A DNA stretch of 64,000 nt, taken from NCBI GenBank assembly GCA_949130485.1, contig OX422203.1:4431178-4495177 (forward strand), read 5' to 3'. A program made the translations under genes and the position numbers. Source of the DNA: Agelas oroides (Eukaryota > Porifera > Demospongiae > Agelasida > Agelasidae). Below are positions 6,032 to 56,844 of this stretch, in pieces (the stretch's first letter is position 1; each line of letters begins with the position of its first letter). The notes under the pieces are model-generated. The model ran no database searches. It saw nothing but the letters and a program-made list of their open reading frames with translations, and was not told where the DNA came from.

Positions 6032-6033
6032 TA

Positions 6034-17762: not shown

Positions 17763-17780
17763 AATCAGATCAAATCCGGC

Positions 17781-18251
17781 ATGGTTCAGTGGTCAACACT
17801 ATACTACTCATGGACTGAGCTGGAGACACCTGATGCAACAGGAATGCAATTAGTTCTAGACAAACTTACGAAGGTTGAGAGGAAACTAGCTTTCCTGGAC
17901 GAACTACCGCAAGGCTTTCAGTGTGTAATATGCAAAAGTACTGCTAAAACACCTGTTGTTTCCCCTTGCTGTCAGAGGGTAGTTGGGTGTGAGACATGTG
18001 TAAATAACTGGGTGAGTTCACAATCACAGCAATCATGATGCCCCCTTTGCAGTACAAGTGGTGGTATGTTAAACAGATTTGCTCTAAAGGGCTTCAACGA
18101 TGCACTTGGGATAATACTTGGTACTACCCTAGAAGCAGAAGTTCCTACTCCAACGCAACTTAAATTGATGACTCAGACTCTGATTTTGAGGACCCACAGC
18201 CCTTGTTCAGGGGTGCTGCTCATGACTAAAAGTACTGTGAGCTGTGACTAG
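17781..18251 (+). pseudogene. RING/U-box-like zinc-finger exon, stop-interrupted
   Basis: A short helical lead (VLDKLTKVERKLAFLDELPQ) is followed by FQCVICKSTAKTP, SPCCQRVVGCETC and, after a TGA at 18036-18038, CPLC. The Cys spacing fits a RING-type finger of a putative ubiquitin ligase. The TGA sits inside the finger, just before the last CPLC. The frame then runs on to 18251 without a known domain. It is adjacent to the end of the RT remnant, so it may be a host or element-borne exon exposed by the truncation; I cannot tell which. Confidence 0.5.
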
Positions 18252-18284
18252 AATTCAGTCAAGTCACTTTTGATTGATTTCATG

Positions 18285-18535
18285 TACGCATATGTATATT
18301 CATTCAGTGCATGCATGGTGACCCTCCTTATGTACACACAACTAACGTAGCAACATGTACATTCTTTCAGTGACCCTCCTTATGTACACACTAATGTAGC
18401 AACATTGTATGTTCTTTCACTGCATGCACAGTGACCCACATCACACTAACGTAGCAACATTGTACAGTGACCCTCCTTATCATGTACATGTACACACACT
18501 AGCTAATATTCTGCATTCTTTTAGTGTATGCAACA
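18285..18535. repeat. Diverged minisatellite, unit about 60 bp
   Basis: GTGACCCTCCTTATGTACAC, followed by a CTAACGTAGCAACAT-type block and TTCTTTCA, recurs about four times with substitutions and small deletions. Non-coding. Confidence 0.65.
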
Positions 18536-18596
18536 TGACCTTTGTGATCTGAATATCATCATGTATACATAAATTACCTGTGTCTGGCTAAAGTAG

Positions 18597-18720
18597 CCTC
18601 GTTCCCAGGCCCCGCCCAGCTTTCCGTCGCTTGCAGTACGGAAAAGCGGTAGAGGGCCTGGAATAATTTATCACGTGAGTGACGTAGGGGTAGAGAGAAG
18701 GGTAGAGGGGACTCCATTCC
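18597..18720. mobile_element. Remnant of the TAGCCTCGTTCCCAGGCC MITE family
   Basis: It starts with TAGCCTCGTTCCCAGGCC and contains a partial inverted copy (GGCCTGGAA) and the CACGTGAGTGACGTA block that is also seen in the full-length copy at 32,499-32,956. Other remnants of the family occur at about 21,848-22,250, 46,210-46,280 and 46,550-46,740. Confidence 0.6.
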
Positions 18721-18955
18721 TCCAGCAAGAGAAACTTTTGAGCATTGCCTAATCAGACTGCTGATCTAGAGCTGGCTTCTGTTTTCAGCTTTTACATACC
18801 GCCTGTGTACATGATATGCTAAACAAGCCATTAAGGTACAGGATCATGAGATAAAAGAAATGCAAAAGGAAGCTTGGTAGCATACATCATTCCCCATTGT
18901 GAAGTTTAATTTTTAACTTGTATACACAGCTGAAAAAGGACATGAAGTGCTGTAG

Positions 18956-21900
18956 AGTAACAACAAAACGAAAAATTCTCCCCAAAGGAATACTCTGCGA
19001 AAGTCTTCTCCCCGAAAGAGTACAGCTTCAAAGACGTCCCTTCGAAAAAGTGCAGCTTCAAAGACGTCCCTTCGAAAAAGTGCAGCTCAAAGGCGTCCCT
19101 TCGAAAAAGTGCAGCTTCAAAGACGTCCCTTCGAAAAAGTGCAGCTTCAAAGGCGTCCCTTCAAAAAAGTGCAGCTTCAAAGGCGTCCCTTCGAAAAAGT
19201 GCAGCTTCAAAGGCGTCCCTTCGAAAAAGTGCAGCTTCAAAGGCGTCCCTTCGAAAAAGTGCAGCTTCAAAGGCGTCCCTTCGAAAAAGTGCAGCTTCAA
19301 AGGCGTCCCTTCGAAAAAGTGCAGCTTCAAAGGCGTCCCTTCGAAAAAGTGCAGCTTCAAAGGCGTCCCTTCGAAAAAGTGCAGCTTCAAAGGCGTCCCT
19401 TCGAAAAAGTGCAGCTTCAAAGGCGTCCCTTCGAAAAAGTGCAGCTTCAAAGGCGTCCCTTCGAAAAAGTGCAGCTTCAAAGGCGTCCCTTCGAAAAAGT
19501 GCAGCTTCAAAGGCATTCCTCCAATAAAGTGCAGCTTCAAAGGCGTCCCTCCGAAAAAGTCCAAAAAAGAGCTGCTTCAAACTCATCTCTCAAAAAGAGT
19601 GCTGCTTCAAAGTCTTCTCCCAAAAAGAGTACTGTTCGCAAGTTATCTGGGAAGGGTACTGTTCAGACCAAGAAAAAGACAGCTTCAGGTTAATGGAAAT
19701 TTTTTTGTATTGTACTAACTGAACAAGTGGGCAAGCTGAGTTCTGGCAGCTTTTGGGTCATGCAATTATAACATCACGGTATTTTAATGATTTCTCATTT
19801 CTTTTATATAGGGAACTGTTCCACTACAAGTGTGAGTGATAGTGAGGGTACTGACTCGGATTCAGATATTGTTCAGCAGGCAAAGGTAATTATGGTGTCA
19901 AGCTTTCATAGCCACAAGTGTTTTGTAATATTTAAAACACCCTAGGGAGGGCTTTACACGTTTTAATTTAGTGATACAGGGGTACTGTGGGGGGGGGGTT
20001 AGGGTTAGGGTTAGGGAGTCCTAGGATAATCCCGGGACTGCTGTTGTAACTCCGGTGTTCCGGAATATTCAGCCACAGGGGTTCTGGGGGGGTGAGGGAG
20101 TCCCAGGATAATCCTGGGACTGCCGGTGTTACCCCAGTGTTCCGGGATACTCTACAACAGGGGTGTTGGGGGGTGAGTGAGTCCCAGGATAATCCCAGGA
20201 CTGCTGGAGTTACTCTGTCATGCCAGAGGTGTTTTGGTACTGTATTATGGCAGCATTGGACATGTGTGAGTATCTTACCTATTACATGTATGTCTCTCTA
20301 TACACTTTCAAAGAGCTTTAGTTTGATTGGGAGTGAATGAAGCCTGCTAAAAGGCAGTATTCAGTATTTTGTTTCCTGTTTATTGTTAGAGGGCAAAGAA
20401 AGAATCAACAAATACAGCAAGTACCAAGGAAAAATCTCGACTGCTTCAAAATGAGAAAAGTAGCCTGGATATTTTGGATTCTTCACCAAAGGAATGAGAA
20501 GAACAACCACCAAAGGAACGAGAAGAACAACCACCAAAGGAACGAGATGAACAACCACCAAAGGAACGAGATGAACAACCACCAAAGGAACGAGATGAAC
20601 AACCACCAAAGGAACGAGATGAACAACCACCAAAGGAACGAGAAGAACAACCACCAAAGGAACGAGATGAACAACCACCAAAGGAACGAGATGAACAACC
20701 ACCAAAGGAACGAGATGAACAACCACCAAAGGAACGAGAAGAACAACCACCAAAGGAACGAGATGAACAACCACCAAAGGAACGAGATGAACAACCACCA
20801 AAGGAACGAGATGAACAACCACCAAAAGAATGAGATGAACAACTACCATACCAACTTTATCACCCATATTCTGATACTATGTACACAACCACTTCTCAGA
20901 TGGAAAAAAACCCACCACCTGTGATAAGAAGTTTCTCTCATCCTCTATCTCTTCCCATGCCACCACCTGCATTCCCACTTTCTCCAGCCCCATACTGTGC
21001 AGTGGTCTCATACTGTGGCCACAGTATGAGACCAGTGCATCTGCCACTCTATTTCCACAAATGGTAATATCTATAATCATTTCTGTTCACTTGCATGCTT
21101 GATAATACTGTACGGTCTCTCATCATTTTGCAGAATCCCGACAACCACCTCCTATGGATGATGTTTGCAAGCTTTCAAAGTATGAACAATGAAGTCCGTC
21201 TGCTGAGAGAAGAGCTCTCATCTGTGCAGAAGCGACTGGAGAAACAGCGTGTGAAAAAAGTAATTAGCTGTACCAGGGAAAGTGCCATGTAACTTTGCAA
21301 ACAACAACATTTACTATTTATTAACTCCAAATTTTGCTACACTCCTCCATGCCATTGTGCTTTGTCTGTCCTTTGATCTAAGGCACATCTAGCTTGAGTT
21401 GAGCGATTTGCTATGTAATATGTGCATAAATATTTTAATATGGTATACCTTACATTCCAAGGTCTGTGAGTTGCATCCCCTCTTATCATCTTCAGTGGCT
21501 TAATAAGAGTTACGGATTTTCCATACCACTATGTGTTTGAAAGTAATTCAAAGCCCACAGGAGTTCAATTAGATATCTATACACTGTTTTTACATTTCCA
21601 CAGGATCCATCTAGACGGCTATCATCAGAATTCAGTGATGAGGTTGCTGACACCTCCAGAAGCTTTAGTTTGTCCCCAACTCCTTCACCTGTACCATTTC
21701 AACAGCATGCTCCCTTTCCAGGTAACATACAGTTTTCTAATCCAATGTTATTACGGTTTGCTAAGTTTATAGTGATGCTACGAAGCTCAAGAACACAAAG
21801 TCAGATGCAACAAGTGATGAGCAATGGATAAATACAGGACTTATTAGCCTCTTTTCCAGGCCTTCCCACCATCCAGTTTTGATTGCTTGCAGCATGCAAG

Positions 21901-22895
21901 AATGGAGGGGAAAGGGTTGGTACCATTTACCATGCGAGTGATGTCAATGTCTACCAAGGTAGATAGACAGAGAGAGGGGCTCTTGGATGAAAGAGTGTAT
22001 TTGAGGCCTTTACTTGCAGTGCTGATCTATGTGTTGATGTGTTGAAGTTCCGAACATTTGCAAAGTGAAAAGTTGCCACTCATACAGGACGAAGAATGCA
22101 GATGCAAAACACGCTCTTTTGTTCAAGTGCCCCTCACCCCACCCCCTCTGTCCACCTAGGTAGACTCATGTGGTAAATGGTACCAGGCCTTCTCCCTCCC
22201 ATTTTCGCATACTCTAAGTGATCAAAAACTGGACAGTGGGAAGCCCTGGGAGCAAGCCTAAAGACAAATAAACTTTGCTCACATTAGAGTGCTTTATGAC
22301 CTTTGGCTTTGTGATTACAAAAGGGATACATCTTGTTATAATATGCATGTACATGATAGTCTTGTAAGTTGTTGTAAAGGCAACCATGCAAATTTTTTTA
22401 TGTAGCAAATGGATGCATCTTGGGTGACCCCAACGGCGAACATACTGTAATTCAAGGTTGGAGTCAGGTTCAAATAAAGGCTAAAGAAATAGCCTCATCA
22501 AACCCTACGACACTGGCCCTAAAACTCATGGATGCATTTTTCACAAAGAATGAGCTGGCAGCAGGGTGTTGCACAGAGGTGGATGGAAGGGGGCTACTTC
22601 GACCCGATATCATTGATGGAATTCGAAGTAGGTTGCTTACTCCTCTTTATGTGCCAATTTATACCTACCATCACTTTTGGAATATTTGAGGCTGTATCAT
22701 GTTTTTCAATAAAGTTAATGTATTTTCACTGAATTTATGAAATTGTGTGTTTCAATTTCTGCAGTGCACATCAATTACAGATACCCTGACACCAAGGAGA
22801 GTATGGAAAAACGCTGGAACACGCTGCTACATACTAATATGAATGGAAAATGCAGAAACATTCGAATGAAACTGAATTCGAAGCAACAACATTAA
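18956..22895 (+). CDS. BEN-domain protein gene, locus A main body (multi-exon, likely pseudogenic)
   Basis: Exons by splice signals: 18956-19688 (basic repeat exon), 19812-19885 (acidic, SVSDSEGTDSDSD), 20390-21063 (KEKSRLLQNEKSS, then PPKERDEQ repeats, then a Pro-rich tail), 21134-21259 (coiled coil EVRLLREELSSVQKRLEKQ), 21604-21721 (Ser/Pro-rich), 22406-22627 and 22765-22895. The last two exons carry the BEN domain: LALKLMDAFFTKNELAAG, LLRPDIIDGIRS, then INYRYPDTKESMEKRW, ending at TAA 22893-22895. BEN domains bind DNA, often short palindromes, and mediate repression. Two in-frame TGA codons lie in the first and last PPKERDEQ repeats (both replace CGA). A TNP2 transposase remnant follows 0.6 kb downstream on the same strand, which suggests that the locus belongs to an EnSpm-like element. 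Confidence 0.65.
19010..19570 (+). repeat. 30-bp coding tandem array in BEN locus A, about 18 copies
   Basis: The unit codes for ten residues. Upstream units read (T/A)ASK(T/A)SLRKS. After the third unit loses one base (around 19085) the same DNA reads QLQRRPFEKV. An offset at the end of the array (about 19560-19575) brings back the AAS..S..KKS style. The central 14 units are almost identical; edge units are diverged. All three + frames stay open through much of the array. Confidence 0.9.
19975..20230. repeat. Three 75-bp intronic repeats with a palindrome and a short TTAGGG tract
   Basis: Three copies share a GGGG-rich start, GAGTCCCAGGATAATCC and a TGTTCCGGGATA-like end. The palindrome TCCCAGGATAATCCTGGGA is intact in the second copy. 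The first copy also holds TTAGGGTTAGGGTTAGGG (about 19999-20017). It lies in an intron of locus A. Confidence 0.7.
20478..20836 (+). repeat. 24-bp coding tandem array (PPKERDEQ unit), about 15 copies
   Basis: In the exon frame set by the acceptor at 20389 the unit is P-P-K-E-R-(D/E)-E-Q, a charged helical repeat. Another frame gives a longer stop-free peptide rich in His and Asn (KNNHQRNEM), but it does not join the flanking exon sequence sensibly. The first and last units carry TGA in place of the Arg CGA. Confidence 0.85.
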
Positions 22896-22923
22896 TTTCT
22901 TGGGACTTTGAAGCAACATTAAT

Positions 22924-23035
22924 TTCCTGAAACTGTGAAGTTCTCAGGCGCTAGTCTTGCAGTATTGATGTTGTGTTAATTTCTGAAACTGTGAAGTTCT
23001 CAGGCGCTAGTCTTGCAGTATTGATGTTTTATTGA
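22924..23035. repeat. Tandem duplication of about 55 bp after the BEN gene
   Basis: The block AAACTGTGAAGTTCTCAGGC with its downstream sequence (to TATTGATGTT) occurs twice in tandem just after the stop codon of locus A, probably in the 3' untranslated region. Confidence 0.75.
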
Positions 23036-23049
23036 TGTTGTGTTGTGTT

Positions 23050-23510
23050 CTGTTGTGTTAAAACTTTGGGCAGTGACGTGCTATAATAATATAGTGGTGT
23101 TACGTGCAAAAATCGCGATTAAATTGCCATAGATTTCCGGTTTTCTGTGCTACCTTGCGATACGTTGCGTGGAAATACTACGTGGTAAATCGCGATCTAC
23201 AGCATTTCAACGCGTTGTAACGTGCATCATTTTCACCCGGGCCTCAATTAAAGAAAACATATCCAGGCTGTGTGGTTACAGACAACAGATTGAGGGTAGC
23301 AGAGAGCTTAATTCATACACGGCCCAAACACATATCATAGCTTCATGCATGTGTGGTCATATCTACTTCTGGGAAAGATTTCTTTGCCTATATCACCTGG
23401 TACACAAGCTATCTGCTCATGTCACCTCATGCATCTCTGTCTAGTCAACACACATATTACAATTTTTTCTCATAGAAAACTGGGATTTGCTGCAGTACCC
23501 TTTTACCCGG
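23050..23510. other. No gene seen
   Basis: The stretch between the BEN gene and the transposase remnant holds only short open stretches. A segment at 23460-23520 may be the degraded start of the transposase. Confidence 0.4.
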
Positions 23511-23519
23511 TAATAGCAC

Positions 23520-25130
23520 ACCAGCAGGTCATATCAGAGACATCCAGGATGGTGAAATGTACAGAAGACTAGCACAACCTGGAGAATTTCTCTCTATCCC
23601 AGAACATACAGGTTTGATTCTGAATGCAGATGGTGCTCCTATTTTCAAGTCTGGTGGCCACTCTCTCTGGCCAATCTATCTCTCTGTGACCAGCTTTCCA
23701 CCACAGATGAGGATGAAAGTCAGGAACTTACTTGTTGCTGGTGTTTGGTGTGCTCCTGTCAAGCCTGACATGAAGGTGGTTTTGGGTCCAGTATTAGCTA
23801 AAACAGCTCAAAGCACATGGCATTCAAGTGGAAACAACTGCTGGTCACAGAACAGTGAAAGCTTGCCTCCTCTTGGCAGTGTTTGACCTGCCGCCACTAG
23901 CCATGGCATGCAACACCACACAATTTAATGGGAGCTATGGCTGCCTTTACTGTCTTGACAAAGGTCACCAAGTCTCTGGCACACATGTCTACCCACCCAG
24001 TGATGAATACCAACCAAGAACACCAGGCCAACAGAGGCATTGGGCAGAAGAGGCAGAAAGGGGTGGTTCCTCTAACCCCGGGGTCAGAGGAACCTCATGA
24101 TCAGTCCTCTCAAAATCAATTGACATTCCAAGTCAATTGATTACATGCACGCTGTTTTAGAAGGAGTGACAAAAAAGCTCATGCAGAATTACTGGTTCTG
24201 CTCGAAACATCATGGTAAAACAAGCAGCTTCAGAGGATAAAGCCTCCCCACGACTTTCGCAGCACACCCAGGCCAATTTGGAAAGCATCAGAGTATCAAG
24301 CATTTCTATTGTATTATACCATTCCAGTCCTGATGTGTTTCTTGCCATCTGACTACATCTACCATCTTGCACTCCTAGTATGTTCTATGCACACCCTATT
24401 CGGCACAGACATCTCAACAGAAGACATCCACCAGGCTGAGGCCATGCTTCACAAGTTTTACAATCTAGCTCTGAAATTATACCCCCTTCAGTTGTGTTCG
24501 TCCGTCACTCACAGCCTCATTCACGTTCCCCAGTTTGTGCGCACATGTGGGCCACTATGGAGTTACTCCATGTTTGGGTATGAAAACATGAATGGCCACC
24601 TGAAAAAGCTTGTTCATGGTACCAGGAACATCCTGGACCAGTTGGTCTTTTCATACCAGGTGAAACGACTATACTCCCATTTGAAGGAAAAAGTTAGAAG
24701 GGGAAGAAACACCACGAACAGTGAAATACCTTTGGGAGACTAGGGGTGAAGAGACAGGTAGCCAGATAGGTGAGAACACTTACATAGCTGGCAAAGTGAA
24801 GTATAGAGAGGTAAACATCAAAGTTCAGACAAGTCTCAGTGAAGCTGGTGCAAGACTTGAAAGTGAAGAACTGCCTGTCTTTGTCAAAATGAAAAAGAAT
24901 AATGTCATCTACCACTCATAGTTATCTTCTAAACAGAGAGGAGCAAGAAATAGCACTGTCTTTCAACAGCGGAAATTCGTTTTGGATCAATAAAACTTTT
25001 TTGCCTTGTTGCAAATGCACCTGTGACTGTCATACAAGTGTTTGAGACCACCAACCAAGATCAATTTGCTGAGCTAAGAACTCCACAACTACAGGAGCTG
25101 TGACAGGGCTACCATTTAGAAACTTCAAAA
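23520..25130 (+). pseudogene. TNP2/EnSpm-like transposase (Transposase_21/DUF4218-type), broken
   Basis: Motifs in order: EMYRRLAQPGEF, LILNADGAPIFKSGGHSLWP (about 23610-23670), NLLVAGVWCAPVKPDMK, then after a shift near 23810 AVFDLPPLAMACNTTQFNG and YGCLYCLDKGH, a Cys pair typical of the TNP2 middle. After another break (24080-24310) the C-terminal half follows: LPSDYIYHLALLVCSMHTL, HSLIHVPQFVRTCGPLWSY, FGYENMNGHLKKLVHGTRN. The last part to 25130 is degraded (QVFETTNQDQFAELRTPQL). It is the presumed mobilising enzyme of an EnSpm-like element, lying 0.6 kb downstream of BEN locus A on the same strand. Confidence 0.7.
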
Positions 25131-25204
25131 AAGCTTATACATATTGTCAAAAAGCCATCTCTGTCAAGTGCAACAACCTTACAAGATCTTGATTGGATCT
25201 TGAT

Positions 25205-25529
25205 GCAGTGACCTCAGTGACCCTGAAGATGTCAACCCCAGTGATCCTGAGGATGTCGACCTCAGTGATCCCGACGATGTCAACCCCAGTGATCCCAAGG
25301 ATGTCGACCTCAGGGTTAGTGTACCCGAAGATGTCAACCCCAGTAATCCTGAGGATGTCGACCTCAGTGAACCCGAAGATGTCAACCCCAGTGATCCCGA
25401 GGATGTCGACCTCAGGGTTACTGATCCCGAAGGTGTCAACCCCAGTCATCCCGAGGATGTCGACCTCAGTGATCCTGAGGATCCCAGCATTAATGATCTA
25501 AACCCTAGGAACAACTCCTCCCACTCAGG
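25205..25529 (+). CDS. Acidic repeat exon (DPEDVNPS unit), parent gene unknown
   Basis: In one frame a 24-bp unit encodes D-P-E-D-V-(N/D)-(P/L)-S about eleven times with drift, then runs into NDLNPRNNSSHSG at a GTATGC donor (25530). The array is strongly acidic, in contrast to the basic arrays of locus A. Other frames (for example MSTPVILR) are also open but make low-complexity hydrophobic repeats and are less likely. Which gene it belongs to cannot be decided; it is just downstream of the TNP2 remnant. Confidence 0.45.
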
Positions 25530-25719
25530 TATGCACCATTTGACATGGTGTATGTGCATGTCATGTAGCTTTCACTATATTCTTCATATATAACTCCTCA
25601 AGGAGTTCAGGTAAGAATTGCTCATACAACACCCTACATATACCTCTCTTCCAACCTCCATAGCGATCATTGTTTCATCCCACATAATATTTCCCACATT
25701 ATCTCTGCTATTTTACAAG

Positions 25720-25960
25720 ATATAACGCAATGAATCAACACTACACCCATTTTTTAGTAGCTTCTCTCGTAACCACGAGATGGTTTCTGCACATGCGCGT
25801 TGGGGTAAGAGACTGCGCACTATTGTTGCACAATCTCGAGATAGCACAAATATATTGCGCAATCTCAAGATCACGCAACTATAGTGTGCAATTTCGGGAT
25901 TCTGAGAATGCGCAACGCAATCTCGAGATTGCGCAAATTCTCAGATTGCGAGGAACATGT
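25720..25960. repeat. Dyad-rich segment sharing sequence with 50,938-51,040
   Basis: AAGATATAACGCAAYGAATCAACA, the TTTCTCTCGTA block and a GCGCATGCGC-like end occur here and again at 50,938-51,030, so this is a dispersed repeat. The later part contains several near-palindromes around CAATCTCGAGATTG (25,915-25,930). Confidence 0.55.
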
Positions 25961-25974
25961 ACGCAAGATACCAT

Positions 25975-26523
25975 GCACACATGCATGTGTCACAGCCTGT
26001 AGCGTTCGTGTTTGAGTGTCTTTTGATTAATTGCTGCAACTTCTCTTTTACAGTTCCACTTTAAACATAGGCATCACTTGAGTGATAAGATATAAAGCTG
26101 GCTGGCTAATGGGAAAACCCAAAGAACATATTCAGGCCATGTAACTTGTTGCCATGGTAACCATGTTGATCATTTTCTTTCATGCCAGCCACTTTTCTCT
26201 CTCTCCTACATCAGCAACCTCCAGCTCCCCAGTCACCAACCCCTCAGCCCCCAACTCCCCAGTCCATGGCTTCCCAGTCCCTGGGTCCTTCCCCAGAATG
26301 TTACAACCTACAGCACAAAATCGACGGAGTTGATGTGTGAACAATCCACCACCACATACATGTTCCCCAGTTATGGCAGGACAGTCAACAAACCGTCACT
26401 TCCCAATTGGAGAACACTTGAGGTGGACCAGTTGGGGGTTCCAGACTGCGGAAAAGAGTTCAACCCCCAGACTATTACCAGTCTCAGCCCGAGACGGGCT
26501 CTAGCACCCAAAGGGGGGAGTAA
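25975..26523 (+). repeat. Segmental duplication copy 1: 3' end of a retroelement polyprotein
   Basis: It matches 41,195-42,016 (copy 2) closely but lacks about 283 bp, which in copy 2 hold an exon. Near the end one frame reads RLRKRVQPPDYYQSQPE and stops (TAA) just before a purine tract AAAGGGGGGAGTAA. That arrangement looks like the end of a Ty3/gypsy-type polyprotein followed by a polypurine tract. There are in-frame differences between the copies, and neither is intact. Confidence 0.55.
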
Positions 26524-27204
26524 TGTCATGAACAGTGGACATATTTAGAGGACTTGTTCAAGTAATTACACTAATTTTGTACAGCTTGAACATTCCTTGG
26601 AGTATTTGCCCGTCTGTATTTCTTTCTCTCAACACTACATAAGCTGCAGAGCTACTCCTTGATCCAAGAAAGTCATTACAAAAGCGAAAGAGAAAGGCGA
26701 ACCGGAAATACATGGATGAAACGGGAGGAGTAGATGTTGCTGAAGAAAAATTGCAATGCAAGACTGAACAGTAATAAACAAGACAAGGAAGCAAAACGAA
26801 GAGCAATGGAGGAAATGCTCAAAACTTGGAAGGAAAAAATTCCTTGCCAAAGGTGTGATAACCTGCAAAAAGAGTTGAACGGATTGAAAGAGAAGCTCAT
26901 TGAAAAACAATCACATCTCTGAGGTGGTTGATGAGCTCAATTTTGCTACAGGACTGTGAGCCCAGGGGCCAAATGCCTGCAGGTTATTTTTGTTGTGTGT
27001 AAATCATCAACAGTCTGTGCCTTGTTTATCACTAAGTGGACATCTTGTACTTATCTTCCTCACAGATCCTGCTTCTCCCCAAAGTGTGAGGTTTTTAAGA
27101 GCCCTGGCAGATATCTCCTATTTATCTTATCTCCCGAGCGCCACACTATCTATGCAGCAGTTGGGCAGGTCGGGTTTTGACCCAATCACTTTTTTGCATA
27201 TCCA
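26524..27204 (+). repeat. LTR-like segment, copy 1, interrupted by the 8.1-kb element
   Basis: It starts TGTCATGAACAG right after the purine tract, as an LTR would, and matches 42,017-42,750. Inside, a 62-codon frame reads CNARLNSNKQDKEAKRRAME and LQKELNGLKEKLIEKQ, a coiled coil; the second copy has the same with one frameshift. So the segment may also contain a coding exon, which is unusual for an LTR. It resumes at 35,333 after the insertion. Confidence 0.5.
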
Positions 27205-27500
27205 CCCTTATGGAAAAAGTTGTAAGATCTTATAAGAATCTTATAAGATTCAACAAAACCTTATAAGACTTCCCCACTTCTTAATTACTGTTTCTTATAA
27301 GAGATTTGGGACAGTTCCATAAGAATCTTATATGAATCTTATAAGTCTTATACAATTCTTATGGAACTGTCCCAAATCTCTTATAAGAAAATATCTTGTA
27401 CGTAAGAGTTAGATTTTTTAAAAAGAGAATTAAAGGTTAATTATGCTACCTGTTTTCTTACAAGATATATGTATCTTGTATGAAAAGTAATCATTATACA
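27205..27500. promoter_or_regulatory. Left terminal/subterminal repeat region of the 8.1-kb element
   Basis: After the terminal repeat, CTTATAAGA-like motifs recur at close spacing. A 33-bp inverted repeat (around 27290-27390, arms containing GAGATTTGGGACAGTTCC) forms a hairpin-like dyad. In plant En/Spm, clustered subterminal repeats are bound by TnpA; the same role here is inferred only. Confidence 0.5.
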
Positions 27501-27939
27501 TATGAATATCATTATATGTACAGTATTATTTCACACCAAGTTTGTGTATATGGTACAAACATGTTTGCATGAATGCAATGCATATATATGACCACTAGCT
27601 AGCTAGTATACTGCATGTTCTGTCCGATAACACAGGCACTAGGTGTCATGCAGTTGACTTGTGCTTATTTCGGTAGTCAATGAATCCATGGTTAAGCTTT
27701 GAGAACATTTCGCCACTATCCCAGCCGCCTGGGTACACTTTCCACACCTCACCTGTATAGGGATAAGTCAGACAAAATGTTCAAACGAAGTGTGCATCCT
27801 TTTAGGATCAGCAAAGTTAATAATTTTTGCCCATCAGGAAGTTCAGTGTACAAACTTTTGAGAATCACTCCAGAAATTACTTATGCACACCCTTACGTAA
27901 CATATTATATATATGTACATACCAAGAAGAAGACCCAGC

Positions 27940-30360
27940 TTTTGTGGATCAGCCTGAGAGCGTTTCAATTTGCCTGGCTTTGGAGGGACACAAGTACAGG
28001 TCCGTAGCTCCTCTGGGGTGAAGAACTCTGGTAGGAGCTTCCTTGCCATTTTATAAGCATTTGGTGCTTTTTTAGCAGAGGCTATTTTCGCCGTATTGAC
28101 CTTCACCTTCCCTATCCACATACTCCAGCTGGATGACATGTACAGTAATGGATTCATCAACCATTACAACTGCCAAGGCTCATATCACATATCTCAGTCT
28201 TTCCTGCCACTTAAACAGGCCTGCACGTGCTTCACAGCACCACCTCGTCGGTGAAAACGGCTTTATAGGGTGTTTGTTTCCCGCTTAATTGTCTATCTGG
28301 CCAACACTCGATGATGTTTTCGATAAACTTACTGGAGCAGGTTTGGGGCCATGTGGAGTGCGTGTTGGAGTATCTGGAATGAGCACCTCTTCAAGGGATG
28401 GAGCAAATTAAGTATGATGTTTAGTTTTGAAACACAATTTGTTACATTTAGCCATTTCTTTTGAACCCATTTTTTTTACCTCCTCTTCATGAGAAACACT
28501 GGCTGCTATTTCATGACCCTACAAGATGTAAGCAATAATTAGTCACCTAAAATAATACCTAGATAACATTTTTGTTTTGCTGATGGCTATCAGCCTGGCC
28601 AGTTTGTTGTGGGTGTCACTGTTATCTTCCACATGCACATATGCATGTGGCACTCATGAACTCTGTGCTACCCAGATATATATTTTGTGATGCTACAACT
28701 AATTTCATCATGTCTAATAATGTGTACATTGCCAATGCAGGTTGAAAATGCATGTATTTGTAACTCCTCATTTGAAAAATTAAATTCTGGTAAAAGCTTT
28801 CTTGCCATTTTATAGGCATCGTAGCTTTCTTTGCAATTTTTAGCTTATCAGCATTGACACGGAGGCCCCCAATGTCAATGAACTAGAATTGAAAACACAT
28901 TAATGCATTATATATAATTGGGTTTCATAAAGCTAGTTAGACGATGCATGAGATGGTGTTGTTTTCTGGAAGGGCTGTGGTGGTGAGGTTGTTTTCTGGA
29001 GGGGCTTGGGTGATGTGGTTATTTTCTGAAAGGGCTGTGGTGGTGAGGTTAGTTTCTGGAGGGGCTTGGGTGGTGTGGTTGTTTTCTGGAAGGGCTGTGG
29101 TGGTGAGGTTGTTTGCTGGAAGGACTGTGGTGGTGAGGTTGTTTGCTGGAAGGGCTGTGGTGGTGTGGTTGTTTGCTGGGAGGACTGTGGTGGTGAGGTG
29201 GTTTTCTGGAAGGGCTGTGGTGGTGAGGTTAGTTTCTGGAGGGGCTTGGGTGGTGGTGACAATGAAGATGATGGAAATGAGGCTGGTGGAGATGATTCCT
29301 TGTAGGGGGTAGTGTCTGGATTCTATATTGGGACGAAATTTTGTTTCAGTTAGGGGGCCCCTCCTTCCCTGTTACTACCAAAGTAATGTTGATGTTACTC
29401 ACACAAAGATACGTTTTGCAGGAATACATTGTCAAATACCTGAAGCATGTCCTGGCTTTTTTTTAATCAGCTGTGTCAATTTGTCTCCCACTGGATCTTT
29501 TCCACAGGAGACTGCATCTGTCACCACTTCCTGCATGTGTAGAATTGAAATAATTTACACAAGCCAAAGAGCAGCACAACAATATACTAGTTGCTGTTGG
29601 ATGTCAGTTATACAATCCATCATAGGCTGCAACTGGTGTCTCAGTTCTTCTTTAGACATCATAGACAGGGCATCCTAATGGGATACAGGCTACTAGTTGT
29701 AGCATCAGATTGCAGAAAATGTGCATGCATACCATGTATTGTACATACATTACTGAATGTAGCCTCTGGCTGTGCTTCATCATCATCTGGTATGTGATCA
29801 GCTGGTGTCTATATGTAGAAAGGACTGTATTGCACGTCCGCGCCATCGTGAGTGTGACCACTTCAGGGGTCTAATTGTGGTATCAGTCTGAAATCTAGTT
29901 ATGTACATCACCATGACTTACAGAACCAAGGACAACATTGTTAGAGCTAGCTGTGCTATTAACATATTCCAGCTGGCTCTGAATGTCTTGCTCCAACTGC
30001 AGCTGTTTCAACGTGTCCATGTCCTTTCTGGCTTTCTTTGCAGCAATCTTGATGACGTTATAAAAATTTGATATTGTCTTATTAATATTGTTCAAACCTT
30101 TAATTTGTTAGGCAATGGTGAAACATTACCTTGGTAACATCAGTTGTTGAAGTTGATTTTACCTTTCTCTTTTTGCTAACAGGTTGTTCAGAGCAATTCT
30201 GTACAATACATAGCTGTAGAAGGAAGTGAATATGCATAATTGAAGGTATCTAAGCTCCCATTGTACGTATACATTGCCTTCCACAACTTCTAGGATGGTA
30301 GCTCGGTATCTGCCACCTTTCGTCTTTGAACAAACAGTTGCTAGAACTTCAAGTGGAACA
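27940..30360 (-). CDS. BEN-domain gene, locus B (multi-exon), inside the 8.1-kb element
   Basis: Read leftward, plausible exons are: about 30,340-30,260 (GGRYRATILEVVEG), 30,200-30,131 with a nuclear-localisation motif (VSKKRKVK), 30,060-29,922 coiled coil (ARKDMDTLKQLQLEQ) ending at a GTAAGT donor, short acidic and helical exons (29,815-29,755; 29,685-29,590 with KEELRHQLQP), 29,530-29,440, then the Pro/Gln/Thr repeat exon (29,320-28,935). Two BEN-like first halves follow: 28,885-28,740 (KMARKLLPEFNFSNEELQ) and 28,120-27,945 (KMARKLLPEFFTPEEL), with a linker exon (TPTRTPHGPKPAP) between. The predicted product is nuclear and DNA-binding. A full second BEN half as in loci A and C was not found, so the gene may be truncated at 27.9 kb. 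Confidence 0.55.
28940..29262 (-). repeat. 30-bp coding tandem array (SPPQPFQKTT unit), about 11 copies
   Basis: On the coding (-) strand the unit is S-P-P-(Q/K)-P-(F/L)-Q-(K/Q)-(T/L)-T. The length is a multiple of three. It lies between the coiled-coil and BEN exons of locus B, the same relative place that arrays hold in locus A. The + strand Gly/Val-rich reading is a shadow. Confidence 0.85.
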
Positions 30361-30589
30361 AATCCCCATCAGGCTCCAGCCTCTTGCTGTTGAGCACTTC
30401 CTCCTCCCTGTTTTCATACCTTACACAGAACTTTTCCGGGGGTTAGATATGATGCTGTTATGGCATTGCTCTCCAGATAATTACAGCTGTTTGTGTAGAC
30501 TTTGCAAAACCTCAGTTAAGGATAAAACAAAATGTTGGCTAGCTTTACAACTGCAAGCAACTAAGAGAAGGAAGTTGACCATATAATTC

Positions 30590-31390
30590 AACAGCTTTGA
30601 TTTGTTCTTTTCGCCGAGTCTGCGCAAACAGCTGTACAGCGAATCTTTGCAACGCTAGAGCACAGTGTAGTGTGTTGTGTATCCTAATGCATGGACAATT
30701 TGCCAGTTAGTGAACAGCATAGCCTAGTGTACATGTACTGTATGGGCCTATCAAAATAACAATCACAATATAAACGCTTTTGCTTGCCACTTGGTGCGCA
30801 TGCAGCGATTCTTAAAATACTGTAGCACTTAGTAGTTAAATGGTTAGTACCCTTCAACACTTGTAAGTTAAGTAGCTTAGCACCCCCCCACCCCCCCCCC
30901 CCCCCCCCCCAACTCATTAAGTAGTGTAAACTTACTCTTCATATGCAGTTTCCACCACGCCTGGAGCGTCGTAGGCTGGAGCTCTTTGTTTATGAGTGCT
31001 GATAGTGAGGACGTGTTTGCGCGTTTGCACCGCGAAACCATTCTTGAAAGCTCGTCAGGTCTTGCCCGTCTTCTTCGACAGCTTCTCAGCTAAAATAAAA
31101 CGTTGAGCAGCTGCCGATTCTGTCTGCATCATAATTATATATTACAAGATGAGCGCGTGCAAGTGCCTAGGGGTGTAAGCCGCGGGAGAACCACTGATAA
31201 ACACTGCATGCAACTGTCTGCAACACCATCATCAACTAGAACATAAATTCTGATTGGTACATGTTAGTATTGTATAAGTGCGTTATGACATTTTGTAAAC
31301 ATTTGGATCGTAGTCTAATAATAGCGAAGCTAGATTACATGCACCGACCATCACACGCAAGCTGTTCCATTGTAGAAGTTGGAGAGAAAA
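30590..31390. other. Divergent intergenic region of the 8.1-kb element; likely promoter area
   Basis: It lies between the 5' ends of locus B (-) and the TNP2 gene (+). It holds a 27-nt C-rich run (about 30,884-30,910). No TATA box or other promoter could be fixed with confidence. As the only spacer between divergent genes it is the natural place for a shared promoter. Confidence 0.4.
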
Positions 31391-31392
31391 CC

Positions 31393-34300
31393 TGATGAGT
31401 TTGAACGTGACTGCTCATAAACGAGGTCCATACAAGCGGTACCTGACCAATCCCGACTACCCTGTTCCTCGGTAAACCAGGTACAACTGGAGGCATGCAG
31501 CTGCTGAGGGTGACGACTGTGAGTCCGAAGATGATTTCGCTATTGAAACAGACCCAAACGACGATGGTGAAAGTCACGCACCGATATGCGCAGATGACAG
31601 CTGTGATGAGATCGAAGACCATGTTGAAAGTGAGGCTGAGGACGATGTAGACCCGATCGAAAGCAAAAATGAAGACAACAACGACCCGATCGAAGATTTA
31701 CTGACTATGATGTTGATGACAGTATACCATCATATGTGTATAGGTTCACCAAAAAGTACACCATCCTGGCCGGGTTGTGGTGCTCTGATCGATCTCCTCC
31801 CATGTTTCAATACCTTCGACCTATTTTGGAGCAGTGCAAGCTACTCCAAACTGAAGGTATATATACGTATCACTATACATTCTATAGCTTTGTTGGTTCA
31901 TATATTTTTACTACCTGTACTGGATATGAAAAACTTACACTAGCCAAGAAATTGTATTTTAATTTACACACACTATACAGCAGTCATCATCAGTGGTACA
32001 AGTGAGGTATAACAAAAACCAAATTAAATGCAGAAGCACAAGGATGACCGTTGTATAGTACGTGTGTCAAAATGTTTGGTTCAATTACACATTTCTTGGC
32101 TAGCTGCATGTAGTTTGGCCACATCCAGTACTGTTAGCAGGCTTTACCACACAGAGCTGGAAAGGTTGTTTACTAACTGTTGCCTAGGTATCGAAGTACC
32201 TGTTGGTCCCAACCAAAAGTTGGAGCGGTGCCGAGCGATGGTCCTCTGTGTAACCACTGATCTGCCAGCAAAAGCGAAATTGCTGAATTTTATGGAATTT
32301 AATGGAGAATATGGGTGCACAGTTTGCAAACAAAAGGGAAGAGTTGTGCCAGTTGGTGCAGGCAGAACTCGTGTTTACGAGTATCCAAGGACTCCTGTAC
32401 CACCATGCACTGAGGTCCCATGAGGATTGCCTAGCTCTTGGTAAAAGGGCATTGCAAACAAAAAAGGTGTGTGAACATAAGATTATGTGTAATTTTAGTA
32501 GCCTCGTTCCCAGGCCTACCCCATTTTTTGTTCTTCGGTTTGTGTTCAATATAATACATGGAGGCGGAAGAGCGCGCGAAAAACGGGGAAGGCCTGGGAA
32601 CACTTGTCACGTGAATGACGTCTGGTGGACGCGAGGTGGACGTAGGGGGGGCGGTGCCCAACTACGAATAACGTACTAGACTTCATCATCGAGCGCTCCA
32701 ACGATAGCCCGGACCCCAGACGTTCATGAGATCGACAGTACTTGACTTCACCGGTAAGAAACTCGCTCTACGGTTTATTGCACACGAATTTGTGGTTGGG
32801 CACCGCCCCCCCTACGTCCACCTCGCGTCCACCAGACATCATTCACGTGACAAGTGTTCCCAGGCCTTCCCCGTTTTTCGCGCTCTTCCGCCTCCGTGTA
32901 TTATATTGAACGCGAAACGAAGAACAAAAAACGGGGTAGGCCTGGGAACGAGGCTATAATTTTAGTATTGTAAACTTCACATGCAGCCAAGGGCTTATCC
33001 CCCCTGCGCATTCTGCCATCTTTCAATATCATCAATGGAGCTGTCATTGATTATATGCACTGCCTCCTTGAAGGCATTGGCTAAAAGCATTTCCAGCTTT
33101 GCCTGCCTCACTGCGGACGTCGTCCAACAGATACTACATTGGTCAAAGTGTAGAGCTTATTAGCCATCGCCTCGCCTCTGTAAAGCCACCTGACACCATT
33201 ACAAGAACACCACGTCCTCTTTCCACTCGGAAAAAATGGAAAGGTACTATTTAATGGTTCTTCCATACGTGCACTACACATTTACAAAGTCAAACTTTCA
33301 AGTTTGGAATTAATTAACCCTTTTACAGCTTCTGAATACAGAGCATGGTTGCTCTTCTACTGCTTGCCGGTCCTGAATGGTATTCTTCCTCCAGTGTACC
33401 TCAAGCACCTTGCTCTGTTAGTGTGCAGCATGCATGCATATTCTCCTGGGAGACAGAATCAGCCTGGAAAGCCTGTCTGTTGTGGAGTACATGCTGGACA
33501 AGTTTTATCGTCAATTCGAGGAACTCTATGGTAAGCTAGCTCTTTACAATGAGTACATATAGTGCCTGCCTACACATAATTATTACTTCTTCATTATGCT
33601 TGGGCAGGCCTCCAAAACTGCACCATGAATGTGCATCTTGTGAGTCATCTCACTCATTATGTGAGGCTTTATGGTCCTCTTTGGACCCATTCATGCTTCG
33701 TGTTTGAGTCACTGAATGGATACCTGATGCAGTTAAAACATGGAACTCAACATATTGTCACACAGGTACGAGTGATTACCAGTTGGGCGATATCATACCA
33801 ATTCTTTTGCAAGATTAATATTATTACTATGTACTCAGGTTCAAGCTCAGTGGTTGATTATGAAGACTCTGACCCTTGGCTTGGAAGATGCATCTGACAA
33901 GAACTCAACACCAGCCCAAGAACTCCTTCGGGAACTAAATGGCCATGTGCTCCAGTGGGTAGTTTATTAAATTGCACCCCATGCACATGTTTATAGACAG
34001 GCATGACATGGTTGTTTTACTTCATGTGCAGCATGAAGGACGTTTTGTGGTTGGGGGTAAAACTAAATGCTAAGATGTTGCAGGCTGTGAACAGGTATTT
34101 GTCCTCCCAGAAGCTTCCACTGCTATCCCAAGAGCACAACGTGGATATTTTCAGCAGGTTGCATATCCAAGGAATGACCCTACATAGTGTCAGGTATATA
34201 TATATACACATATACATAAGTATATGTGTGGACATACATACAGCTGACCAAATTTCATAAGTGTCCTTTTGCACACACAGATATCAAAAGGTCACTAAGA

Positions 34301-34623
34301 GAAATCCGTACACTGTTCAGTTATCATGTGGGCTGCATAAATACGGATGTATCCAGTGTTACATCACAGTCTCCGCTGATGACAGAATACACCATCTGGC
34401 AGTGATCAGTCTCCTAAACATCATGCCATTCACAAGTCTCCCTTGGCTTCCTGATGAAAATAACACTATACAAGCAGCAGTCAGCCGAGTGGCCATACCA
34501 GTACAACAAAGTGCAGAACTAATAGCCGTCCCACTTGATGTAATACATAAAAAGTGTGTGTATGTTGAGGTAGAATCTTGTAAATATATCTGTGTCCTTC
34601 CTAACATGTATGAGCGAGATTAA
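31393..34623 (+). pseudogene. TNP2/EnSpm-like transposase of the 8.1-kb element, multi-exon, broken
   Basis: From the Met at 31,393 a basic start (HKRGPYKRYL) leads into a long acidic stretch with one TAA (about 31,470). Then YTILAGLWCSDRSPPMFQYL (about 31,760), VLCVTTDLPAKAKLLNFMEF and YGCTVCKQKG (32,160-32,340), a shift near 32,400, the MITE at 32,499-32,956, then INGAVIDYMHCLLEGIG ending in TAA (about 33,090), ASEYRAWLLFYCLPVLNGIL, LYGPLWTHSCFVFESLNGYL (about 33,670) and C-terminal exons to a TAA after PNMYERD (34,621). Introns have GT-AG ends. The part equivalent to the NADG motif of the 23.5-kb copy seems deleted. The order and C-terminal half match the other copy well. Confidence 0.7.
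32499..32956. mobile_element. 458-bp MITE with about 200-bp inverted arms and a 9-bp target duplication
   Basis: The ends are TAGCCTCGTTCCCAGGCC and GGCCTGGGAACGAGGCTA. The arms stay complementary for about 200 bp (CACGTGAATGACGTC, GGCGGTGCCCAAC and others). TAATTTTAG flanks both sides (32,490-32,498 and 32,957-32,965), a clean 9-bp duplication, as for Mutator-like elements. It lies within the TNP2 gene, so it is younger than the host element. Confidence 0.85.
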
Positions 34624-34705
34624 AGTTATAATTATTTTTCCTTTACCAGAAAATGTGTATTTGGAAAATTCAACAGCATGTATATATGCATGATCATGCT
34701 CTCTC

Positions 34706-34707
34706 TC

Positions 34708-34744
<37 letters not shown>
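34706..34744. repeat. CT/AT microsatellite
   Basis: A CTCTCTCTCT tract followed by about 28 nt of AT repeats. A similar TA tract lies at 39,876-39,904. Confidence 0.9.
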
Positions 34745-34745
<1 letters not shown>

Positions 34746-34860
34746 GGTGTACATATATACTGATCTAGCTTCTTGATTACAAGAAGGATACGTATGTACA
34801 AGCTAGATTTCTTCATGTAAGATATTGAAATGTGTCACAGACGAAGAACATTATATCATA

Positions 34861-35121
34861 TGTGGCAGTCCCGTGTAGAAATCGAAGGTTATTCCGTTGC
34901 GTATTTCGATCGCATCGCTGCGTTCAAAGCGCCGTATCGCTGAACTTCCGTTAAGGGCGGGGCTCATACGCGCTTCGTAGACTCATTAGCTATTTACGCA
35001 TCTACGAAGCGCGTATGAGCCCCGCCCTTAACGGAAGTTCAGCGACACGGCGCTTTGAACGCAGCGATGCGATCGAAATACGCAACGGAATAACCTTCGA
35101 TTTCTACACGGGACTGTCACA
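34861..35121. mobile_element. 261-bp near-perfect palindromic MITE with TA target
   Basis: TGTGGCAGTCCCGTGTAGAA at the left is matched inverted at the right (TTCTACACGGGACTGTCACA). The arms are almost identical over about 120 bp with a short loop around 34,985-35,000. TA on both sides (34,859-34,860 and 35,122-35,123) is the likely target duplication. It sits just inside the right end of the 8.1-kb element. Confidence 0.85.
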
Positions 35122-35124
35122 TAT

Positions 35125-35332
35125 ACATAATTATAAGATTATATACATTTCTTATAGGAAAAATATCTTATAAGAATATGGTGTTTATACTTATAAGAAT
35201 CTTATAAGAATGTGAAATTCTTACAAGAATTACATAAGATCTTATGATGCTTTCATAAGATTTTTTTTACTTATAAGAACTGCCAGAATCTTATACGAAT
35301 CTTATAAGATCTTACGACTTTTTCCATAAGGG
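35125..35332. promoter_or_regulatory. Right terminal/subterminal repeat region of the 8.1-kb element
   Basis: It mirrors the left end. CTTATAAGAAT and variants occur about every 15-30 bp, and the last about 40 bp are the inverted copy of the left terminus (GATCTTACGACTTTTTCCAT and on). No coding capacity. Confidence 0.55.
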
Positions 35333-35691
35333 CAGTCTGTGCCTTGTTTATCACTAAGTGGACATCTTGTACTTATCTTCATCACAGATCCTGCTTCTCC
35401 CCAAAGTGTGAGGTTTTTATGAGCCCGGCAGATATCTCCTATTTATCTTATCTCCCAAGTGCCACACTATCTATGCAGCAGTCGGGCAGGTCGGGTTTTG
35501 ACCCAATCACTTTTTCGCATACCCAACTTGCACATGCGCACTTTGAATTGTGTTGAGTCGAAGATAGTAGCTACAAGTCATGTCATCCCCCCAAAAAATA
35601 CCCAAGGCAATACTATCAGCCTTTGCAAGCTGCCATGAAGCCGAAGACAGGACATGTTGCCCACTGCTGGTCAACATGTTTCGTGTGGCTA
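35333..35691 (+). repeat. LTR-like segment copy 1, continuation after the insertion
   Basis: The first about 193 bp repeat 27,011-27,204; the rest continues the match to copy 2 (42,720-42,903) up to GTGTGGCT, where the two copies part ways. So one segment of about 195 bp is present on both sides of the 8.1-kb element. Confidence 0.75.
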
Positions 35692-41460: not shown

Positions 41461-42016
41461 GTAAGGACTTGTGTAGTAAATTCTCTATGCTTTTTAGTCT
41501 AGAAGAAAAAGGTACTGAACAACTAGCCTGACCTTTTCCACTTCGAGGCTCAAGTCCTTGGATTGGTCCACTTTAAACATAGGCATCACTTGAGTGATAA
41601 AATATAAAGCTGGCTAGCTAATGAGAAAACCCAAAGAACAGATTCAGTCCATGTAACTTGTTACCATGGTAACCATGTTGATCATTTTCTTTCATGCCGG
41701 CCACTTTTCTCTCTCTCCTACATCAGCAACCTCCAACTCCCCAGTGCCCGACCCCTCAGCCCCTAACTCCCCAGTCCCCGGGTCCTTCCCAGAATGTTAC
41801 AACCTACAGCACAAAATTGATGGAGTTGACGTGTGAACAATCCACCACCACATGTTCCCCAGTTATGGCAGGACAGCCAACAAACCGTCACTTCCCAATT
41901 GGAGAACACTCGAGGTGGACAAGTTGGGGGTTCCAGACTGCGGAAAAGAGTTCAACCCCCAGACTATTACCAGTCTCAGCCCGAGACGGGCTCTAGCACC
42001 CAAAGGGGGGAGTAAT
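41195..42016 (+). repeat. Segmental duplication copy 2: exon plus retroelement 3' end
   Basis: It matches 25,975-26,523, with an extra block of about 283 bp (41,277-41,566) that holds the FHSQSDYNYERL exon. It ends in the frame with RLRKRVQPPDYYQSQPE and a stop at the purine tract AAAGGGGGGAGTAA. Copy 2 is the fuller version. Confidence 0.65.
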
Positions 42017-42903
42017 GTCATGAACAGTGAACGTATTTAGAGGACTTGTTCAAGTAATTACACTAATTTGCTAATTTTGTACAGCTTGTACATTCCTTTG
42101 AGTATTTGCCCGCTCACAGCTAAAACTGTACACTTGCATTTCTTTCTCTCAACACTATTTCGGATCCAAGAAACTCATTACAAAAGCAAAAGAGAAGGGT
42201 GAACCGGAAATACATAGATGATTGCTATGATGCTAGAGGCGAGCCTAAGAAGGCAAAGCAAGACAAGGATGAAACAGGAGGAGTAGACGTTGGCCTGCTG
42301 AAGAAATATTGCAATGCAAGACTAAACAGTAATAAACAAGACAAGGAAGCAAAACGAGGAGCAATGGAGGAAATGCTCAAAATTGGAAGGAAAAATTCCT
42401 TGCCAAAGGTGTGATAACCTGCAAAAAGAGTTGAACGAATTGAAAGAGAAGCTTATTGAAAAAGAAAAATCAATTGCATCTCTGAATGAGGTGGTTGATG
42501 AGCTCAATTTTTTGCTACAAGACTGAGCCCAGGAGCCAAATGCCTGCAGGTTATTTTTGTTGTGTGTAAATCATCAACAGTCAGTGCCTTGTTTATCACT
42601 AAGTGGACATCTTGTACTTATCTTCCTCACAGATATCTCCTATTTATCTTATCTCCCGAGCACCACACTATCTATGCAGCAGTTGGGCAGGTCGGGTTTT
42701 GACCCAATCACTTTTTCGCATACCCAACTTGCACATGCACACTTTGAATTGTGTTGAGTCGAAGATAGTAGCTACAAGCCATGTCATCCCCACAAAAAAC
42801 TACCCAAGGCAACACTATCAGTTCCCATTTCCTTTGCTAGCTGCCATGAAGGCAAAGACAGGTCATGTTGCCCACTGCTGGTCAACATGTTTCGTGTGGC
42901 TTC
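42017..42903 (+). repeat. LTR-like segment copy 2 with embedded coiled-coil frame
   Basis: It begins TGTCATGAACAG. Bases 42,199-42,530 encode YIDDCYDARGEPKKAKQ and, across one frameshift near 42,390, LQKELNELKEKLIEKEKSIA, a coiled coil of about 100 residues ending in a TGA. The homology with copy 1 ends at GTGTGGCT (42,903). No terminal CA with a target duplication could be fixed, so LTR status is provisional. Confidence 0.5.
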
Positions 42904-51350: not shown

Positions 51351-52143
51351 AGCATCCTTTGATGAGTGTGAGGAAAAAAGTGGATGATATAATAACCATC
51401 TTAAAGGAACAGGTATGCATAACTATGTAATTTCACTATACAACCACGCTATTTAGTGATGTTCTTTTTTGAAACACACTTCCAAAAGCTAATGTCTGTA
51501 AGTGATTTGGCTGAAGCTGCGTTCTACCAAGTGATCAAACCTGAGTTATCAATCAATGTAGATCAGTGGTAATGTTTTCTTCCATAATTGGCAGAGGACA
51601 AAGGTGTGAACCTACTCACACTCAGGGCCCCAGACCCGGAGAAATATGCCCTGGTGCTAATGGATGCACTGTTCACCGACAGTGAAATGGCCGCTTCTTG
51701 CTACACGGCAACCAAACCTTCCAGCTGAGAGGGTTGAACTTCTTGAAAGTAAGCCCTGCTAAGTTTCAATAGTCATTCACACATCCACTGGGCTTATTTG
51801 GAGCAGTCAAAAACAAGTCATAATATAAACAAAACATAACCAGTGGGAAATATGTACAAAGAGAAAAGAGCTTACATACACACATTTCATTTCTTGATTG
51901 ACATGTTATAGGTATTGATTCAGAATTACATATCCTCTCTCCCACTTTTTTTTCCCTCACACAGAGTGCATCGATCGAAAGTTTGGACGTGGGACAGCCG
52001 AAACAAACGAAGCCATAATTCGCAAAAAATGCAACCAGAAATGTATAGACATTGCTAACAAATGCCTGAAAGCAGCAGCAGCTGCAGCTGCAGGTGCTGC
52101 TGCTGCGGCTGCCAAAACTGCCAAAACTGAAGACAATCTCTGA
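51351..52143 (+). pseudogene. BEN-domain gene, locus C (3' exons), frameshifted
   Basis: Exons by splice signals: 51,351-51,412 (short coiled coil VRKKVDDIITILKEQ), about 51,596-51,750 (first BEN half: EKYALVLMDALFTDSEMAAS, then after a shift near 51,715 PAERVELLE) and 51,966-52,143 (second BEN half: IDRKFGRGTAETNEAIIRKK, CNQKCIDIANKCLK, then a poly-Ala tail and stop TGA). It aligns by eye with the last exons of locus A. Upstream exons were not found. The 22-bp repeat array starts about 120 bp after the stop. Confidence 0.65.
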
Positions 52144-56838: not shown

Positions 56839-56844
56839 CATGGG

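Follow-up and report, generated by a model that had tools for sequence, protein, structure and literature searches.

In plant transposons of the En/Spm (CACTA) type, TNPA binds the subterminal repeats and both element proteins are needed, while TnpA-like proteins share little similarity among themselves, according to the passages that treat them (PMC2613891). For SmTRC1 of Schistosoma mansoni and other animal CACTA elements, the corresponding passages report ends that begin with CCC, 2-bp direct repeats and a Transposase_21 domain; the describers expected a DNA-binding second protein like TNPA, and in those passages report no relatives of it (PMC1636069). Animal CACTA elements were left by this 2006 description with a transposase and a DNA-binding partner of unknown family. 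Here we analyse a stretch of 64,000 nucleotides (the window) from the demosponge Agelas oroides (assembly GCA_949130485.1, contig OX422203.1, positions 4,431,178 to 4,495,177 of the forward strand), which is part of contig 21 of a 259 Mb genome. Positions 27205-35332 of the window hold a transposon with a TNP2-type transposase gene and, divergently, a gene with a BEN domain. On balance we favour the view that it is a decayed CACTA/EnSpm transposon of the animal TRC kind, whose working relatives carry both genes and whose BEN protein would act on palindromes in the manner of TnpA. The assignment to the TRC kind follows from the CCC ends and the 2-bp target duplication.

With SmTRC1 the sponge element shares Transposase_21, the CCC ends, the 2-bp end repeats (seen in 7 of 14 SmTRC1 copies) and a repeated motif, which in SmTRC1 lies in the inverted repeat. 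The second proteins of SmTRC1, however, arise by alternative splicing and in the available part of the description resemble nothing known, whereas the sponge element has a separate, divergent BEN gene. Its likeness to maize En/Spm (with TnpA and TnpD) and soybean Tgmt consists in a TNP2 transposase, a candidate second protein for subterminal repeats, and defective copies that keep ends and repeats; in the plant elements, by contrast, both proteins come from one transcription unit by splicing, the ends are CACTA, and the duplication of Tgmt measures 3 bp, as the sections on these elements state (PMC2613891). The repeat of the sponge element is a 10-bp palindrome, and its ends are CCCTTATG. To our knowledge, TnpA has no BEN domain.

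The outline of the element is given by its inverted ends and by the flanking CA/CA. The left terminal inverted repeat (27205-27267, + strand) and the right one (35270-35332, - strand) measure 63 nt, are 84% complementary and both open with CCCTTATGG, hence with CCC, which confirms to the base the matching ends that a preceding sequence-only reading had proposed. The motif occurs twice in the window, at these two ends only (0.47 expected; at least two in 10 of 100 shuffles). Taking all 626 genomic matches of CCCTTATGG as element copies was rejected: the 9-mer alone is uninformative, because the backward control gives 1222 matches. Seven chance places of the motif (L002-L008) have fewer than three palindrome sites each. 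The element is preceded by CCA and followed by CAG, that is, by a 2-bp duplication of CA, which here lies within a 194-bp duplication.

Target duplications can also be read from gene-less copies. Among end-like matches from 73 + 29 + 32 rows, only copies with both ends were counted for duplications, and one-ended or partial copies were left out (L054 on contig 2, contig 12, the contig-2 group at 21-22 Mb and contig 2 at 9.82 Mb). Thirteen copies remain, twelve of 1550-1675 bp and one of 3225 bp; they carry CCCTTATGC at one end and CCCTTATGG at the other (a single change, CCCTGATGG, in one copy), 16-19 palindrome sites per locus, and a target duplication of 2 bp in 12 of 13 and of 3 bp in the remaining one. 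No BEN profile match and no TNP2 row was found in them. The sequence-only reading had named copies with the same ends and without BEN as evidence against its proposal; to the letter such copies exist, but the transposase is missing there too, as in non-autonomous copies.

The 194-bp direct repeats of the window element (27011-27204, and its 96% identical copy at 35333-35525, both on the + strand) adjoin both ends exactly, like a target duplication, and a paralogous segment without the element (41567-42901) has the repeat once (42578-42726). Either the element was inserted where the two halves of a tandem duplication meet, or the flank was duplicated in the course of an unusual transposition. 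A 194-bp target duplication as a rule for the family was rejected, given the 2-3 bp of the gene-less copies.

The transposase gene (31476-34623, + strand) was followed exon by exon with profile, Pfam and exon searches. For a profile built from three other TNP2 loci of the same genome, eight reading frames on the + strand give a match, all of them between 31673 and 34620, which bears out the TNP2-type transposase read there from the letters. Single exons give weak Pfam results (best Transposase_21 E 0.13), so that by Pfam alone the proposed check against Transposase_21 fails for the window copy; it succeeds for the joined exons of a second locus on contig 23 (39 bits, cut-off 28.6), which also score 22.7 bits with DUF1258, under the cut-off of that model. 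The C(2)C and H(3-4)H motifs of the CMC group, as defined in the relevant part of PMC12730594, were recognised by eye as GCTVC in 32028-32423 and NVHLVSH in 33580-33897. The exon with the first catalytic aspartate was not found in the window element and seems to be gone from it, because nothing matches before profile position 88; the contig-23 version of this exon, used as a query, matches a further TNP2 gene of the window (locus A, see below) and not the element, so the exon is present on contig 23 and in locus A while the window copy lacks a complete catalytic triad. Two short inverted-repeat elements are nested in the transposon, one inside the transposase gene (32499-32956) and one close to the right end (34850-35131). 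We take the window copy to be dead, since its transposase lacks the first catalytic exon, the reading frame of its BEN gene appears by eye to be shifted just ahead of the BEN exon, and it contains these two nested elements.

The BEN gene has many exons on the - strand and reads toward the left end, divergently from the transposase; exon limits and labels were set by eye. Its last exon (27646-27752, stop codon 27646-27648) is expected to encode the C-terminal portion of the BEN domain and scores 46.5 bits with a BEN profile that includes this copy. The main BEN exon lies at 27923-28128, and the joined domain is 67% identical to the contig-23 copy. A second, decayed BEN-like stretch of the same gene (28671-28844; 12.9 bits, E 0.011) is a DNA repeat of the start of the BEN exon. 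Beyond it follow an exon with a proline-rich repeat in 30-bp units (28933-29322, from repeat comparison and reading), a coiled-coil-like exon (29922-30047) and an exon with SKKRKVK, which resembles a nuclear localisation signal (30130-30198), so that these three features, claimed earlier for this gene, are visible by eye. The contig-23 copy exceeds the Pfam cut-off for BEN (PF10523; 28.2 bits, E 2.3e-6, cut-off 23.2). A search of NCBIfam led nowhere.

The contig-23 locus is a second place in the genome at which relatives of both genes of the element stand together in the same divergent order. When the main BEN exon was compared with the genome (E up to 0.001), four rows were obtained, one for the exon itself, one for contig 23 and an overlapping pair for a single relic on contig 6; the contig-23 exon as query matched the same places. 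On contig 23 the TNP2 gene occupies 2480.3-2481.9 kb of the - strand and the BEN gene lies on the + strand at 2486.2 kb, extending to about 2486.57 kb, a mirror image of the window element; the locus was read without about 1.9 kb between the two genes. Beyond the BEN stop codon lie eight sites like TCTTATAAGA (one exact), and then a terminus, TTTCCATAAGG, ending CATAAGG, which equals the window end except for the last base.

Comparison of the two loci informs on the constraint under which both genes evolved. The two BEN exons have an amino acid identity of 70% each, with third codon positions identical at 20/66 and 7/30; nonsynonymous divergence (dN) is 0.21-0.26, and synonymous divergence (dS) is above 4 or not computable. 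Four TNP2 exons show a dN of 0.08-0.25 and a dS above 1.5 where computed. The relic on contig 6 is less similar (48%, dN 0.49, in a comparison that runs partly in a shifted frame). BEN and transposase have diverged to a similar extent under like constraint, with synonymous sites near saturation, and it follows that selection maintained BEN as the elements grew apart. There is thus good support for BEN being a gene of the element that selection has preserved, and no other argument for a function of BEN in the service of the element is as strong as this pattern. The same data bear on the alternative that BEN is a host gene, captured once and carried as a passenger without a role in transposition. 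Transposons are known to capture host genes, and BEN domains without a TNP2 gene found within 16 kb occur on contigs 20, 9, 14, 15, 11, 1 and 6 and at 6.31 Mb of contig 2. The similar dN of the two genes at near-saturated synonymous sites argues against a passenger, as does the fact that a second BEN type (that of locus A) likewise occurs next to TNP2, on contig 2; we hold such a capture to be distinctly unlikely.

A TnpA-like protein calls for clustered subterminal repeats, and the element has them. The palindrome TCTTATAAGA forms a left array (27228-27465) and a right array (35150-35309), each of 8 sites with at most one mismatch; four are exact in the left 276 bp and three in the right 213 bp, against 0.05-0.07 expected and never more than one in 60 shuffles of each end. 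The 7639-bp interior has no such site (six with two mismatches), and in the rest of the window sites of this type occur at 52-57 kb only. Helical phasing of the palindromes is weak (period 10.9, P 0.03 across all periods searched, with 4 of 9 site sets used). At least three palindromes lie near 4 of the 8 BEN or BEN-like places whose sequence was read, namely the window element, contig 23, a relic on contig 12 and a BEN-like exon pair at 51588-52140 of the window; fewer than three lie near the BEN places of locus A and of contigs 6, 9 and 20. In the contig-12 relic (L052, C12:2928500-2935500) the last BEN exon stands at 4570-4677 of that stretch and the palindrome sites at 2647-3463; at this exon, the part that corresponds to window positions 27731-27796 forms about six head-to-tail repeats. 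Among 26 TNP2 loci taken with 1.5 kb on each side, at least three sites were found at one (L084, contig 2, 9.92 Mb), directly after the transposase, though at the other loci the ends may lie further out. The repeat array of L084 with TCTTATAAGA (C2:9917199-9917473) suggests that this palindrome also serves further TNP2 subfamilies.

From these features a mechanism can be proposed. The TNP2 transposase would cut and join, while the BEN protein would bind the TCTTATAAGA palindromes in both subterminal zones; bound there, it might bridge or mask the ends and so recruit or regulate the transposase, which is the job of TnpA in maize En/Spm. The gene-less copies, which keep ends and palindromes only, could then be moved in trans. 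That BEN is the TnpA of the element is, judged from sequence, plausible but unproven: the proposal of the sequence-only reading that it is the animal counterpart of TnpA gains from the element-encoded BEN gene, the second locus, the selection and the palindrome arrays, while binding and the role in transposition are what we infer from them. Binding at subterminal palindromes would fit equally well if the BEN protein countered host silencing or regulated the promoter of the element, like the anti-silencing side of TnpA, and took no part in cut-and-paste. The BEN proteins described so far act as transcription factors and bring in chromatin modifiers (PMC10206803, in part), and TNPA of Spm is also described as reactivating and repressing its promoter (PMC1636069, in part). 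The sites lie at both ends, however, and not near one promoter alone, and we consider a purely regulatory protein unlikely, a double role being still compatible with the arrays.

The pairing of the two genes was claimed to recur at 19-25 kb of the window, as a BEN locus followed by a TNP2 remnant. It does recur in part, on the + strand: BEN-like exons at 22378-22892 (locus A; E 0.0021 with a profile built without locus A, best reversed control 1.8, and no match to BEN in Pfam) are followed by a TNP2 gene at 23476-25100, recognised by TNP2 profile and exon searches. This gene is nearly full length and not a remnant, both genes lie on the same strand, and no recognisable ends were seen: none of 25 listed inverted-repeat pairs in 17500-27200 could pass for a pair of ends. 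For the whole genome, single-exon searches at E up to 0.001, which miss distant relatives, gave 13 distinct BEN places (the contig-12 relic and the BEN-like gene at 51.6 kb left out) and 85 TNP2 rows, merged into 40 loci with the two window genes together in one. The distance between a BEN place and a TNP2 locus is at most 6 kb in four of the 13 cases and at most 16 kb in five, where uniform placement predicts 0.027 and 0.067. Two of the four close pairs are the window element and locus A, that is, the finding itself, so that among the other BEN places 2/11 lie within 6 kb; these are contig 23 and contig 2 at 10.10 Mb (locus A type, divergent, 5.0 kb apart), and the pair at 9.22 Mb of contig 2 is 14.7 kb apart. 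Judged by coordinates, the two genes diverge in the window element, on contig 23 and in both pairs of contig 2, and share a strand in locus A. Uniform placement is a generous assumption, since contig 2 has 19 of the 40 TNP2 loci, yet only about 1% of contig 2 lies within 6 kb of one. This richness of contig 2, the nested repeats that fill the window and the shared strand and missing ends of locus A would be in keeping with a BEN-bearing and a TNP2-bearing mobile element, unrelated to each other, that lie side by side or nested by accident. Both genes of the window element lie inside one pair of ends with a 2-bp duplication, though, and contig 23 repeats the divergent order with a homologous terminus, which makes an accident of this kind very improbable. 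The TNP2 genes of L075 and L088 (contigs 2 and 11) have uninterrupted frames of 627 and 626 codons, as opposed to the many-exon genes elsewhere, and possibly represent young or intron-less elements.

Among BEN transcription factors, BANP offers the closest comparison for the palindrome. Its BEN domain prefers TCTCG, half of TCTCGCGAGA (PMC10206803, in part), and a palindromic site is occupied by two molecules of BANP in head-to-head arrangement, according to the relevant passages of PMC11472053. The element protein has a BEN domain as well, and TCTCGCGAGA shares the outer TCT...AGA with TCTTATAAGA, but BANP and its kin are host regulators and not transposon proteins.

A number of results weigh against a BEN-equipped CACTA element as proposed here. 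The likeness of TCTTATAAGA to TCTCGCGAGA comprises 3 of 5 half-site letters, and by our own arithmetic at least 3 of 5 would agree by chance in about 10% of cases, so that it is a lead only. The proposed search with the Pfam model of BEN, positive for contig 23, gives the joined window exons 18.4 bits (E 0.0024), under the cut-off, and a sequence search of the PDB with the BEN domain returned four weak matches, none of them a BEN chain. Both genes between two ends are seen in one copy only, the window element; for contig 23, DNA searches did not reveal the end that should follow on the transposase side. The expectation of the sequence-only reading that BEN loci would mostly have TNP2 neighbours is partly contradicted, with no TNP2 found near 9/13 BEN places within 6 kb and 8/13 within 16 kb, though distant relatives were missed, and no BEN was found within 6 kb of 37/40 merged TNP2 loci. 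The Pfam BEN model, searched against the genome, finds one place each on contigs 20 and 9, both more than 6 kb away from any TNP2 locus found. On contigs 6 and 12, where BEN relics belong to the family of the element itself, no TNP2 match came up in the sequence examined, which for contig 12 was 7 kb.

A BEN domain as accessory protein of an EnSpm element was not known to the sequence-only reading, and among the matches listed in one open-access literature collection, we likewise found no case of a BEN or DUF4806 domain in a transposon. DUF4806 is given as a BEN subtype in the relevant passage of PMC11075544, and the domain table of a Hydra paper, whose first two columns read 69 and 54 for it, lists it near transposon-type domains (PMC7642931, table seen in part); the BEN and DUF4806 passages of these two papers and of PMC5704228 hold no report of BEN in a transposon. 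The word BEN is absent from a paper on transposon-derived transcription factors (PMC10027918). Fungal transposons, EnSpm among them, carry TET/JBP genes, as stated in the passages on these elements (PMC12730594), and thus resemble the sponge element as EnSpm-class transposons with an extra chromatin-related gene; that gene is a dioxygenase, however, and not BEN, a word with 0 matches in the text of that paper. If our interpretation is true, a BEN partner gives animal CACTA elements a testable protein and DNA site, shows that subterminal repeats can be gripped in a way different from that of plant TnpA/TNP1, and provides a mobile source for an animal chromatin factor family. More tentatively, and with doubts that outweigh our confidence, one may suppose a lineage of animal CACTA elements whose second protein, a BEN protein, binds the ends at TCTTATAAGA-like palindromes and exists in two or more subtypes (window/contig 23, and locus A); from such elements some host BEN factors and palindrome arrays would then descend, for example the gene at 51.6-52.1 kb of the window beside arrays of TCTTACAAGA.

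This BEN-like gene, the exon pair at 51588-52140, is weak as BEN (exon 51588-51725, E 0.086 with an independent profile), and the same exon is identical to locus A at 14/25 positions. Some 120 bp past its stop codon begin about 19 units of 22 bp with TCTTACAAGA (52260-52673), and an inverse array of about 143 such units (TCTTACAAGA/TCTTGTAAGA) extends over 53696-56839; the TNP2 profile has no match near the gene. An open reading frame with a BED zinc finger (50062-50439, + strand; Pfam 22.9 bits, cut-off 20.6) lies 1.1 kb ahead of it and perhaps stems from a hAT-type element. Rfam gave 0 matches on the window. Two other large inverted repeats, at 4947-6033 (1.1 kb, self-inverse, 89%) and 58764-60404 (435-bp arms, 96%), are probably other transposons.

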